Positions 59,095-64,000 of a stretch of DNA of 64,000 bases are shown piece by piece. Source of the stretch: Shouchella clausii (GTDB lineage Bacteria > Bacillota > Bacilli > Bacillales > Bacillaceae_D); the NCBI RefSeq assembly GCF_001598215.1, contig NZ_BCXJ01000001.1, positions 558,001 to 622,000 of the forward strand, written 5' to 3'. The notes under the pieces were generated by a model. That model searched no databases. It was given only the letters and a program-made list of their open reading frames with translations, and was not told the DNA's origin. Both the position numbers and the translations under genes were made by a program. Position 1 is the stretch's first letter. Each line of letters opens with the position of its first letter.

Positions 59095-59325
59095 CTAAGC
59101 TTGAATGAACAAAGCGATAATCAACAGGATAGAGAAAAGCAGAAAGGCGCCATTTAAAATGAGCCCAATCATTTTGACAGATGGTTTGGCGGCTTTCAAC
59201 GCGAACAAGATTCCAACAATAGAGAGCAATGTCCACAAGCCAATCGTATATGTCGGCTCAAATTGAAAAAGAGTGCTTACATAATACAAAAGAACGCTTA
59301 AACAAAACAAGATAATGGATAACAC
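59095..59325 (-). CDS. Small three-span membrane protein beside the lantibiotic genes
   Basis: The protein has 76 residues and starts at GTG; the upstream purine stretch AAAGGAAAG is about 15 bases away, so the start is not certain. Hydrophobic segments are LSIILFCLSVLLYYVSTL, IGLWTLLSIVGILFAL and LILNGAFLLFSILLIIALFI. It resembles small Bacillus membrane proteins of no known role. It follows the ABC exporter gene on the same strand, so a part in lantibiotic self-protection can be considered, but nothing in the sequence shows it. Confidence 0.6.
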   Translation of the reverse strand: MLSIILFCLSVLLYYVSTLFQFEPTYTIGLWTLLSIVGILFALKAAKPSVKMIGLILNGAFLLFSILLIIALFIQA

Positions 59326-59365: not shown

Positions 59366-61150
59366 TTAGTTGATCAACTCGGGAGATTCTTTCTTATATA
59401 ATTGGCGATCGACAAGTTCACGATAAAATTGGTGGTGCTCGATTAACTCATCGTGTGTTCCTTCGCCTGTTATTTCCCCGCTCTGGACAACGACCAATTT
59501 GTCTGCATGCTGCACGGTCGACAATCGATGGGCGATTACTAGCGTTGTCCTAGAAAGCATGAGTTGATTGAGCGCTTCTTGTACTAAAAATTCCGAATGG
59601 CTGTCAAGATGGGCGGTGGCCTCGTCTAACAATAAAATTTGCGGATTTCGTAAAATGGCCCGAGCGATTGCAAGCCTTTGTCTTTGCCCGCCAGATACTA
59701 AAATGCCCCTTTCACCCACTTCTGTTTCTAAGCCGTCTGGCAAAGAGGCAATAAACGAAGATAAATTTGCTTTTTCTAAGGCTACGTGAATGTCGGCATC
59801 GCTGCTTTTTTCAGCATGGCCATACGTAAGATTGTAGCGAATCGTACCCGCCATTAGCGGAGAATCTTGGGCAACATAGGCAATGTTTTGTCTCCAATCA
59901 TGGACATCAAAGTCATTGATTGGTTGATTATCGTACTCTATCGTCCCTTCGCTTGGTGGATAAAATCGTTCAATTAATGAAAATAAGGTGGTTTTGCCTG
60001 CACCGCTAGGCCCGACAATTGCCGTTACTTCACCGGCATTGGCGGTGAAACTTACATTTTTCAGGATATGGTTGCCATTCGGATAGGAGAAAGACACATT
60101 GGCAAATCGAATGCCGTTTACGCGGGCAACTGTTTCTTGATTGTGTGTATAAGATACACCTGACACCGATTGAGATTCCAATTCCTCCTCCATAATATAC
60201 GTGATCCGTTCTGTTGCGCCTTTTGCTTTTTGCAATTGCGTAAAAAAGTGGCCCATTTGTGAGATTGGAGGGATAATCTGGAACATGTAAAAAACAATCG
60301 CAACTAATGTGCCGGCCGATAAGACCCCATTGGCAACTTGTATCCCCCCGTAACCAAAGACGACGACTAATACTAACAAGGTAATGGTTGTCATCAATGG
60401 AGAAATGATCGCCATTATTTTCCCAGTATCTAATCCATGTTTTAACAGTTTATCGATTCTGTTGTTGCCCTGAGACGTTTCCGGGTCTTCCGCTATAGAC
60501 GATTTGACTAACCTGATATCCGACAACACACGCCCTAAATCCCCTTGAAATGAAGCTGTCTCATCTTGCAACGCTTTCGACACTTTGTATGTTTTTCTAC
60601 CTAGTGGTTTTAATACAGCTAGCGACACAGGGACAATCAATAATAAGAGAAGCGTAATGCTCCAATTTAATGCAAACAGGATAATAATCGAACCAAGTAT
60701 TTTAATCGTTCCCGATAAAAAAGGAATCAATTGGTCGGTAAAAAAATTTTTAATAACATTTGTGTCATGGGTAATTCTGCTCATTGTTTCTCCAGAGCTA
60801 TTCTGGTCATAAAATGAGACTGGCAATCGTAACACTTTGTGCCAAAGATCTTTACGTAATTTTGCCACCATTATCTGGCCAATGTAGATCATCATATACA
60901 TAGAGATGCCTGACAGAATGATTTGCACGATAAAGACGCCTGCGATTAGGGCAGCGGTTGTGCCGCTGAAATTTGATTCAACGGTTATGTCCACAAGGTT
61001 CATTGTTAATAGGGGGACAGCAAGAGATAGCGCCGTCTCCATCAGGACTAAGAACAGAGCTAGCCCAAGTAGCCATAGTGAGGGGCGGTAAAGATGCATC
61101 AGGGAAACGAACTCTTTTAATTGAACCTGTCGTTCAGTTGTAGAACCCAT
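59366..61150 (-). CDS. ABC exporter, membrane plus ATPase, candidate lantibiotic transporter (LanT-like)
   Basis: The protein has 594 residues from ATG 61150, behind AAAGGAAG. An N-terminal six-span membrane domain is followed by the ATPase domain: Walker A AIVGPSGAGKTTLFSLIERF, signature ILVSGGQRQRLAIARAILRN, Walker B ILLLDEATAHLDSHSE. There is no N-terminal C39 peptidase, as expected for the LanT of class I lantibiotics, which use a separate protease. It closely resembles BmrA/LmrA multidrug exporters too. The start overlaps the regulator gene by 17 nt, so the two are one unit on the minus strand. Assignment as clausin exporter is inference from context. Confidence 0.8.
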   Translation of the reverse strand: MGSTTERQVQLKEFVSLMHLYRPSLWLLGLALFLVLMETALSLAVPLLTMNLVDITVESNFSGTTAALIAGVFIVQIILSGISMYMMIYIGQIMVAKLRKDLWHKVLRLPVSFYDQNSSGETMSRITHDTNVIKNFFTDQLIPFLSGTIKILGSIIILFALNWSITLLLLLIVPVSLAVLKPLGRKTYKVSKALQDETASFQGDLGRVLSDIRLVKSSIAEDPETSQGNNRIDKLLKHGLDTGKIMAIISPLMTTITLLVLVVVFGYGGIQVANGVLSAGTLVAIVFYMFQIIPPISQMGHFFTQLQKAKGATERITYIMEEELESQSVSGVSYTHNQETVARVNGIRFANVSFSYPNGNHILKNVSFTANAGEVTAIVGPSGAGKTTLFSLIERFYPPSEGTIEYDNQPINDFDVHDWRQNIAYVAQDSPLMAGTIRYNLTYGHAEKSSDADIHVALEKANLSSFIASLPDGLETEVGERGILVSGGQRQRLAIARAILRNPQILLLDEATAHLDSHSEFLVQEALNQLMLSRTTLVIAHRLSTVQHADKLVVVQSGEITGEGTHDELIEHHQFYRELVDRQLYKKESPELIN

Positions 61151-62048
61151 ATGATTCTTCCTTTCTGACCGAGAGTTTGTCTGATAGCAGTTTTTTGAAA
61201 GGCAAATTATTTGTAAAGCTAGCAAAAAAATGGGCTTCCTGGTAGTGCTTTAAAATGTTTTTGAAGGGAACGCCTTTTTTTTCTAAACAAAGACCTTTAT
61301 AATAAAGAAATTGCCCGACATACGCCGTACAAGCATAATTCCTGGATAATTGCAGGCCTTGTCCTATATCTTTTAAAGCAGCATCATAGTGATGGTAGTT
61401 CAGTTCAATGATTGCTTTTTGGTACAAAATATAGATTTTTAAGTTTTTTTTGTGCAAATAGGTGTTCTTTCCTTTAATTCCTTCAACGGATGCAAGGCTT
61501 TTTTGTAAGTAGTCTAACGTTTCGCTATATGAATATTTTTTCATGTGGGAATGGATAATGCCTAAATATAAATGGAACTTTGTTTGAATAGACTGTTCAA
61601 ATGGCAAACAGCCAGCCATGCATTTTAATTTCTTTAATGTGGTCTTAGCATCCTTTTTCTTGCATTGGAATTCAGAGAATAGATGATGGATCCTTATATA
61701 ATCCTTAAACCAATTAGGGAATTCCACCGCCTCGCCACAGTCAATTAATTGTGCAGTTAGCCTGTTCAGTTCCTCGTACTCTTCATTTAACGAGAGTTGC
61801 TCAATCATTTCATAAGTGGTTTCGATGTATTCACTATTGTAGCACGTGGTGAGCGTTAAAAAATGGTCGACAGGCACCCCTAGCTTAGAAGCAATGGCTT
61901 CAAGCACGTGTAAGTTTGGGACGTACTTTCCATTTTCAATTTTGCTTATTGCCGATTGGCTGACAACGCTAGAGCTAATATTTTCTTGCGACATGCCAAG
62001 TTTCTTTCTTAAGTTCCGGATCTCCATGCCAATTCGATTATCCATCAT
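61134..62048 (-). CDS. TPR-type transcriptional regulator (RRNPP/Rgg-like)
   Basis: The protein has 304 residues from ATG 62048, six bases after AAGGAAG (other ATG codons lie just up- and downstream). The N-terminal Xre helix-turn-helix (EIRNLRKKLGMSQENISSSV, SQSAISKIENGKYVPNLHVL) is followed by about 230 residues of helical repeats (FEQSIQTKFHLYLGIIHSHM, YSETLDYLQKSLASVEGI, YHHYDAALKDIGQGLQLSRN). This is the layout of peptide-sensing regulators such as PlcR and Rgg. It is divergent from the lantibiotic gene and cotranscribed with the exporter, so it is probably the regulator of the cluster. The sensed signal is not known. Confidence 0.85.
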   Translation of the reverse strand: MMDNRIGMEIRNLRKKLGMSQENISSSVVSQSAISKIENGKYVPNLHVLEAIASKLGVPVDHFLTLTTCYNSEYIETTYEMIEQLSLNEEYEELNRLTAQLIDCGEAVEFPNWFKDYIRIHHLFSEFQCKKKDAKTTLKKLKCMAGCLPFEQSIQTKFHLYLGIIHSHMKKYSYSETLDYLQKSLASVEGIKGKNTYLHKKNLKIYILYQKAIIELNYHHYDAALKDIGQGLQLSRNYACTAYVGQFLYYKGLCLEKKGVPFKNILKHYQEAHFFASFTNNLPFKKLLSDKLSVRKEESYGFYN

Positions 62049-62101
62049 ATGCATCTTCCTTATCATAACCTGTATTAGTTGGTTTTTTTAAGTGAGGATG
62101 T

Positions 62102-62140
62102 TATCGAAAGATTATCAGGCATTTATCAGAAATATATCAG
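62102..62140 (+). promoter_or_regulatory. Four 11-bp-spaced TATC(A)G repeats, likely regulator binding site
   Basis: TATCAG occurs at 62113-62118, 62124-62129 and 62135-62140, exactly 11 bp apart, and TATCGA at 62102-62107 extends the same phase. One helical turn per repeat puts all copies on one face of the DNA. The array lies between the divergent regulator gene and the lantibiotic gene. A -10-like TATAGT follows at 62183-62188, with only a weak -35, as expected for an activated promoter. Confidence 0.65.
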
Positions 62141-62391
62141 ATTAACCAAATCTCAACATTTATTTTCCAAAAAAATGGGGTCTATAGTAATGACATTTTC
62201 AAAAAACAAACAAAGTTATTCTAATTGTCATAATTTATAAGAGATACTGTCAAAAAACAAGCTCAACCTTGGCATTGTTCATTTTAAGCGAATTAATGAC
62301 TGAAAACGATGTTTCCATTTTGCTAAAATGTTTTTTACAGTTAATTTGCGCCGGGGTTTCCCTGGCAAAAAAAATAGGGGAGGAATATCAA

Positions 62392-62526
62392 ATGGAAAAA
62401 GCATTTGACTTGGATTTGGAAGTAGTACACACGAAAGCGAAGGATGTAGAACCAGATTTCACAAGCGTTAGTTTCTGTACTCCTGGTTGCGGGGAAACAG
62501 GTAGCTTTAATAGCTTCTGCTGCTAA
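62392..62526 (+). CDS. lanA: Clausin-type lantibiotic prepeptide (LanA, class I)
   Basis: The product has 44 residues from ATG 62392, after AGGGGAGGA; a longer frame beginning with TTG at 62269 has no RBS. The leader (about residues 1-22) carries FDLDLE, the FxLD-type recognition box of class I lantibiotics. The core (23-44) begins FTSVSFCTPGCGETG and ends SFNSFCC, which has the ring pattern of epidermin and mutacin 1140: Ser3-Cys7, Thr8-Cys11, Ser16-Cys21 and a C-terminal Ser19-Cys22 pair for an aminovinyl-cysteine ring. From memory it equals clausin of B. clausii. Such peptides bind lipid II. The leader ends EPD, not the usual PR. A decarboxylase LanD is expected beyond the window. Confidence 0.93.
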   Translation: MEKAFDLDLEVVHTKAKDVEPDFTSVSFCTPGCGETGSFNSFCC

Positions 62527-62631: not shown

Positions 62632-62655
62632 CATTTGAAAGGGGAGTTCATGGCG

Positions 62656-63999
62656 ATGAGAAAAAGCGAACAATTATTATATGAGCCTGTAGACACAATC
62701 ATGTTGAGAGCACCGATTTTGTCATTATCGCATGACCATCAAAACGCGTCAAAAGACGATATTATCCCCATTTTGAAAGAATACATAGAACGGCCTGAAA
62801 TAAAAGAGGCACTAGCAGTCGCCAGCCCTAATTTATTTCAGTCTTTAGAGAAAATTCATGGCGATCCCCGTTCCAAAAAAACGAGGAACGCTGTTTCCAG
62901 CTTGTTAAAGTTTTTAATAAGGATGTCTAGCCGTCCAACTCCTTTTGGTTTGTTTTCAGGCATAGCTATAGGCGAACTTGGCGATAAGACAGTGGGATCT
63001 TTATCTGACACGAAGCAACACCAAAAGAGAGCGCGTCCAGATATGGAGTGGTTGCTTGGTGTAGTTAGCAAAATAGAAAAAAACCAAACGATCGCTAGAA
63101 AGCTTAATGTTTTTTTTAATGATGCTGTGTATGAGACGGACGATCGAGTCTACCTTCATTATTTTTCTAACTGTGGGCAGTTAAGAAGCAGTGTAAATCA
63201 AGAGCGCAAAGACAATATTTCCATCAGAAAAACGGTGGTGGTAGAGTTTGTCCAATCAGTAGCGAAAAAACCGATTTCAATTTCTGAATTAATGAACCAG
63301 CTTCAATTAACATATACGAGCGCCTCTATAGACGAAATTGAATCGTTTGTTTGGAATTTATTCCAACAAGAATTTCTTATCAGTGAATTAAGGCCGCCAA
63401 TCGTTAACTGCGCGCCTTTATCCTATATCATACAGATCCTTGAGTCCATCCCCGAAGCGAAGGGAATAGGGGCGATGTTAAAAGGAATTGAAGGCGATAT
63501 AGAAACGTATAACCAATTGCCTATCGGACAGGGATTGGATTTCTTTCAAGCGCTAACGGCTAAAATGCAAGACATTCATCCTAGCAAACAGCCGTTGCAA
63601 GTGGACCTGAGCTTAACATGTACAGAAAAGGTTAAGATAAATCGTTCAATTGGCGAACAAGCGGCCAATGCGGCAGAGTGGCTGTGGAGGCTTTCAAAAA
63701 ATGAGACTGGAATCGCCCATTTACGGGAATACCATGTTGAATTTCTTGAGAAATATGGGATAAATCGAGAAATTCCTCTGCTAGACTTGTTAAGCGATGA
63801 GAAAGGTTTAGGGGCACCGCCAACCTATAAATACCCACCTTCAACAAAAAGTGTTAAACCGCCTCAAACGAAGAGCACTCATCGTTTGTTAATGGAAAAA
63901 TACATCCAGTGTTTAAGGGAGAATGCGAAGGAAATATCATTGACCGCCTCTGACCTGCAAAAGCTAATGGATAACGACACAGATGACGTTTTTGCTCCG
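62656..63999 (+). CDS. lanB: Lantibiotic dehydratase LanB, N-terminal 448 residues, runs off the window
   Basis: The reading frame is open to the window end. The ATG at 62656 is nine bases after GGGGAG; the ATG at 62650 is in frame but too close. The segment FLIRMSSRPTPFGLFSGIAI (RxSSRPTPFGLFxG) is the hallmark of LanB glutamylating dehydratases, and VYLHYFSNCG and other N-lobe segments agree. LanB transfers Glu from glutamyl-tRNA to Ser/Thr of the core peptide, after which the elimination lobe makes Dha/Dhb. Only about half of the usual 1000 residues is present. LanC, LanP and LanD would follow. Confidence 0.93.
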   Translation, partial: MRKSEQLLYEPVDTIMLRAPILSLSHDHQNASKDDIIPILKEYIERPEIKEALAVASPNLFQSLEKIHGDPRSKKTRNAVSSLLKFLIRMSSRPTPFGLFSGIAIGELGDKTVGSLSDTKQHQKRARPDMEWLLGVVSKIEKNQTIARKLNVFFNDAVYETDDRVYLHYFSNCGQLRSSVNQERKDNISIRKTVVVEFVQSVAKKPISISELMNQLQLTYTSASIDEIESFVWNLFQQEFLISELRPPIVNCAPLSYIIQILESIPEAKGIGAMLKGIEGDIETYNQLPIGQGLDFFQALTAKMQDIHPSKQPLQVDLSLTCTEKVKINRSIGEQAANAAEWLWRLSKNETGIAHLREYHVEFLEKYGINREIPLLDLLSDEKGLGAPPTYKYPPSTKSVKPPQTKSTHRLLMEKYIQCLRENAKEISLTASDLQKLMDNDTDDVFAP

Positions 64000-64000
64000 A

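Follow-up and report, generated by a model that had tools for sequence, protein, structure and literature searches.

A phased CTGAT repeat array in the clausin locus of Shouchella clausii is a predicted operator for ClsR, the response regulator of the same cluster

The spa-box of subtilin consists of TTGAT-type pentamers with six-base spacing. Lantibiotic autoinduction through a LanRK pair is described for nisin (PMC10257480) and subtilin (PMC8991943). For PhoB, PMC4415409 describes head-to-tail binding to two 11-nt direct repeats, which is the PHO-box arrangement. A lantibiotic can also be controlled by a PlcR-type regulator together with a peptide, the example being TprA/PhrA (PMC5436883). 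Here we compare these systems with the clausin locus of Shouchella clausii, which lies at the end of a window of 64,000 nucleotides, the whole stretch of DNA that was analysed (assembly GCF_001598215.1, contig NZ_BCXJ01000001.1, positions 558,001 to 622,000). The genes of the window that belong to the argument are as follows.

59366..61150, minus strand: MsbA-type ABC exporter, overlapping the end of the regulator gene
61134..62048, minus strand: PlcR-like regulator (RNPP family), leading the operon at which the repeat array points
62392..62526, plus strand: clsA, gallidermin-type prepeptide
62650..64000, plus strand: clsB, lantibiotic dehydratase, running off the end of the window

The initial annotation of this DNA, made from the letters alone, had flanked the intergenic region with a divergent HTH+TPR regulator (61134-62048) and a prepeptide gene, and it was right about both. 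An in-frame start of the regulator at 62066 is also possible. The core encoded by clsA is presumably clausin. The next stretch of the contig carries the rest of clsB, followed by clsC, D, F, E, G, R and K. The product of clsR (224 aa) matches OmpR/PhoB-type response regulators and the adjoining clsK encodes a histidine kinase; both genes follow clsFEG and lie beyond the window end, hence outside the view of the initial annotation. As in the SpaRK and NisRK systems, a cognate OmpR-type response regulator and kinase thus stand within the cluster as a dedicated LanRK pair at its end, alongside an FEG immunity operon. Among the papers listed by a literature search on clausin, no account of its regulation was found.

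Between the divergent genes, TATCGA at 62102 and TATCAG at 62113, 62124 and 62135 succeed each other in steps of exactly 11, 11 and 11 bp. The minus strand reads CTGAT-N6-CTGAT-N6-CTGAT-N6-TCGAT, in full CTGATATATTTCTGATAAATGCCTGATAATCTTTCGATAACAT, with four half-sites.

62136..62140, minus strand: half-site R1, CTGAT (TATCAG at 62135 on the plus strand)
62125..62129, minus strand: half-site R2, CTGAT
62114..62118, minus strand: half-site R3, CTGAT
62103..62107, minus strand: half-site R4, TCGAT, degenerate, touching the second candidate -10

The number of repeats and their exact spacing had been claimed before and were borne out; of the proposed TATC(A/G)G type, three copies are TATCAG, and the first, TATCGA, fits TATC(A/G) only. 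The arrangement is non-random. The 345-bp region was shuffled 2000 times with dinucleotides preserved; counting periods of 8-25 and k-mers made up of at least three different letters, no shuffle had a 4-mer in four copies at one period, and 0.2% had a 6-mer in three copies. It is also unique in the 4.66-Mb genome (14 contigs), where TATCRG-N5-TATCAG-N5-TATCAG has a single match (reversed control, 0) and YTGAT-N6-YTGAT-N6-YTGAT likewise has one.

Comparison of the intergenic region among relatives, which the initial annotation had proposed as a check on the repeats, covered three further genomes besides that of the window, and the array is kept in all of them, S. rhizosphaerae included. The 353-bp region is identical in two; the S. 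rhizosphaerae version has 92.7% identity over 355 columns, with all four pentamers intact and a single spacer change inside the array. The clausin locus was found in only 4 of 13 genomes of the genus, three of which are identical in this region. A genome scan for orthologs of the PlcR-like regulator returned near relatives only, so that there is no independent instance of the array outside clausin loci. The plasmid search for this regulator and the viral scan gave no match, and the search of plasmids with ClsR covered 4622 records, every one under 60% identity. The same 4 of the 13 genus genomes carry near-identical copies of both clsR and the PlcR-like gene, and their co-occurrence therefore cannot separate the two as rival regulators of the array.

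A pair of pentamers 11 bp apart was first seen on aligning the lanF upstreams of G000, G110 and G048. A first, narrow motif, YTGAY, did no better than chance (one of 18 distant lanF upstreams, against 1.8 in shuffles), and a wider pentamer, [CT]T[GT]A[GTC], was chosen after inspecting those 18 sequences plus those of G110 and G048. With this choice, which makes the counts of lanF pairs and of -10 offsets post hoc, the pair at 11 bp was present upstream of lanF in ten of 20 related loci and absent from the other ten; the clausin locus was left out of the 20, G048 (a match) and G110 (no match) were taken in, and not all loci are independent, as some come from one genus. Base-shuffles averaged 0.56 loci and never exceeded 4 in 1000 runs, and the other spacings from 8 to 15 gave 0-3 loci, so that 11 stands out. 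Of the 12 aligned boxes, 11 have a TANNNT -10 beginning 15 bases downstream of the first base of the second pentamer, whereas any of 15 other offsets accounts for at most one of the 12. These boxes are the lanF upstreams of L104, L106, L110, L111, L113-L116, L119, L121, L124 and L126, two of which (L124, and L106, which is G110) were added by eye from outside the matching ten.

Written as the strict layout YTKAK-N6-YTKAK-N10-TANNNT, the arrangement has three matches on both strands of 80.9 kb: one inside the exporter gene and two in the array, facing the regulator-exporter operon, the latter two not being independent of the repetition since the TA of both -10s lies within the repeat. A relaxed layout admitting the clsF box has six matches in the same 80.9 kb. 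Candidate promoters of the intergenic region are listed below.

62109..62114, minus strand: candidate -10 TAATCT, at offset 15 from the R2 start; retained in S. rhizosphaerae
62098..62103, minus strand: candidate -10 TAACAT, at offset 15 from the R3 start; lost in S. rhizosphaerae (TAACCA)
62091-62062: possible alternative regulator promoter TTAAAA-18-TATGAT, one of those offered by the consensus scan
62300..62329, plus strand: possible clsA promoter CTGAAA-18-TAAAAT preceded by TG, a consensus match from a scan not clearly above shuffles

The array accordingly combines pentamer direct repeats of 11-bp period with the -10 distance expected of a LanR-type operator, a distance rule that was derived here and that S. 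rhizosphaerae satisfies at R1-R2 only. Five sites came out of the general promoter scan, where shuffles give 2.7 (sd 1.9); one of the five falls within the array, but its -10 misses the layout position by two bases. Upstream of clsF the box reads TTGAT-N6-CTGAC, and GATAAT follows at offset 15; both CTGAC and GATAAT depart from the strict rule. In S. rhizosphaerae the box is TTGAT-N6-CTGAT. A pair as CTGAT-like as that of clsF occurs in 7.5% of shuffled clsF upstreams (P about 0.075, weak), and it is therefore the layout that carries the weight.

Direct repeats one turn apart are shared with the SpaRK and NisRK systems. The clausin array differs from them in having four half-sites, not two, and in pointing away from clsA, toward the PlcR-like regulator-exporter operon; a further difference is that no good LanR box was found at clsA, where the plus-strand search for a ClsR promoter gave one poor candidate with three mismatches. 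Taken from sequence comparison, our prediction is that the array is probably a tandem operator for ClsR, a SpaR/NisR-like regulator, because clsRK lies in the cluster, a layout exists upstream of lanFEG and the array matches it. The initial annotation had suggested cooperative binding of the HTH+TPR regulator on one DNA face: the half-sites do fit head-to-tail cooperativity, but the choice of binder is unsupported, given clsR and clsK in the cluster and given that the array agrees with the lanFEG-upstream layout in sequence, phasing and -10 position.

Gallidermin-family peptides were matched in 6 of 397 genomes of the order, and a script scan of the five such loci outside the window found neither a three-copy 5-mer at 11 bp nor the strict layout; the lanthipeptide cluster of G004 gave no match to the layout either. 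The G110 peptide is the most like clausin among those compared, and its cluster, from another genus, has an imperfect lanF box (TTGAT-N6-TTGGG), with no match to the relaxed layout in its 19.9 kb. That cluster keeps FEG-RK, has a LuxR-type response regulator with a kinase where the divergent regulator would stand, and differs from the clausin locus in the DNA before lanA. Two TTTGCGGTA units stand before this lanA (L106, 6561-6800); we take them to resemble ComA boxes. In G048 (L104, 5322-8424, minus strand) FEG-RK occurs without lanA or lanB in 19.9 kb and is perhaps a resistance module. Since FEG-RK is kept in G110 and stands alone in G048, it looks like a module.

The alternative that survives best overlaps with the ClsR prediction: ClsR would occupy the array and the PlcR-like protein a site elsewhere between the array and clsA. 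In conserved length the array is surpassed by a 55-bp block nearer clsA, 62196-62250, which is fully invariant against S. rhizosphaerae; an invariant block outside the array speaks for a second binder, as does the want of a good ClsR box for clsA. Against it, the longest dyad between the array and clsA, 62190-62231, has its left arm altered in S. rhizosphaerae, and nothing in this interval could be assigned to the PlcR-like protein as its site. We regard such joint control as a real possibility that falls short of being probable.

It is unlikely that the PlcR-like regulator itself binds the repeats, autoregulating its own operon and controlling clsA, as the initial annotation proposed. This regulator is the nearest DNA-binding protein and is divergent to clsA; it matches HTH_3 (6.8e-14) and Pfam RNPP_C (5.6e-16), that is, an HTH plus the RNPP C-terminal TPR domain, and PlcR (1.2e-15) is the one solved protein that matches it over the full length at E up to 1. 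That G110 differs in both its divergent regulator and the DNA before lanA also favours this assignment. Palindromic sites are, however, expected for the PlcR-like regulator family, and palindromes were seen by eye in the upstreams of several relatives. Three YTGAT at 11 bp were found in none of 29 loci of relatives, among the matches listed, a wider repeat scan of 28 relatives' upstreams gave one weak AT-rich 12-bp match, and the array fits the lanF-type promoter layout. A short hydrophobic frame antisense to the start of the regulator gene (61993-62091, plus strand), with no obvious ribosome site, is probably a by-product of the coding strand.

Quorum control of clausin through this regulator had also been put forward; density control as such is plausible, whereas peptide sensing of the PapR kind by the HTH+TPR regulator is, judged from its residues and neighbourhood, unlikely. 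According to PMC6568020, Lys89, Gln237 and Tyr275 of PlcR contact PapR. One of these three contacts is retained here, Lys89 being replaced by Glu and Tyr275 by Phe while Gln237 is kept; the position of Lys89 is variable among relatives too. Asn159, Asn201 and Lys204 of PlcR, which we take to be peptide-binding residues, have become His, Gln and Ile in this regulator, although 23, 25 and 25 of the 27 relatives that have a residue at the position retain them. In 18 of 28 PlcR-like relatives from the order (L042-L070), a small divergent gene encodes a peptide ending in a DLP-type motif; none was found beside the regulator at the clausin locus. A DLPxE-type search of its own genome gave 16 matches and no convincing propeptide, and the match nearest to PapR, located in L097, is a short frame that ends in DFPYET and lacks a clear start. 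It is because of the changed contact residues and the lack of an adjoining DLP-type gene that we think PapR-kind sensing unlikely; the regulator may have another ligand or another type of peptide. The locus thus resembles PlcR/PapR in full-length similarity of the regulator and differs from it in having Glu and Phe at the positions of PlcR Lys89 and Tyr275 and in that no DLP-type gene was found. With TprA/PhrA of Streptococcus pneumoniae it shares a PlcR-family regulator beside lantibiotic genes (PMC5436883); it differs in its LanRK pair and in that no cognate peptide gene was found next to the regulator.

Binding of the repeats by another OmpR-family regulator, for example PhoP or WalR, is very improbable. 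TTATCA presumably resembles the B. subtilis PhoP repeat, which we counted in favour, but the genome has this array only once, which is not what a global regulon would show, and the array agrees with lanF-type promoters. In PMC4415409, 11-nt tandem repeats occur in the OmpR family, and the PHO box of PhoB/PhoP shares 11-nt direct units with the clausin array while differing from it in sequence and regulon. Least probable of all is a functionless local duplication, which the narrow occurrence of the locus and its three identical copies would allow, but which the shuffles, the persistence of the array in S. rhizosphaerae with one spacer change and its fit to the promoter layout oppose.

The second gene of the operon facing the array bears on export. 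There is no LanT-type exporter among frames of at least 90 aa in the clsB-clsK stretch, so the divergent MsbA-type exporter is a candidate clausin exporter with a putative LanT role. It shares 44% identity with the exporter in a different lanthipeptide cluster of Shouchella and 29% with the one in the G110 cluster, values that are weak as support since exporters of this MsbA kind are present in all 13 genus genomes. Just past the exporter lies a 76-aa hydrophobic open frame without a Pfam match (59095-59325, minus strand), for which an immunity role is a guess.

Returning to ClsR as the predicted binder of the array, we propose that extracellular clausin, or a related signal, would activate the kinase ClsK. 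Phosphorylated ClsR would then bind the CTGAT half-sites head to tail, one helical turn apart, and would activate the promoter whose -10 begins at offset 15, counted from the second half-site's first base. Through the array the PlcR-like regulator-exporter operon would be switched on, and through the two-site box clsFEG immunity, a scheme that follows the logic of nisin (PMC10257480) and subtilin (PMC8991943). Transcription of clsA may depend on the PlcR-like regulator or start from a promoter of its own. Any action of ClsR on clsA, whether direct or by way of the PlcR-like regulator, is conjecture. A full two-tier circuit, in which ClsK-ClsR would switch on, through the four-site operator, a pocket-less, pheromone-free PlcR-family regulator that in turn drives clsABCD, with ClsR driving immunity directly, is a speculative extension that we consider rather doubtful.

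The analysis makes the wiring of clausin control testable in a probiotic species group, at the level of regulator, DNA and operon. The layout YTKAK-N6-YTKAK-N10-TANNNT, found upstream of many of the related lanFEG immunity operons that were compared, could be used to predict the targets of LanR where a cluster is still unstudied. Should the PlcR-like protein no longer sense a peptide, the clausin locus would exemplify a quorum regulator that has come under the control of a different sensor.
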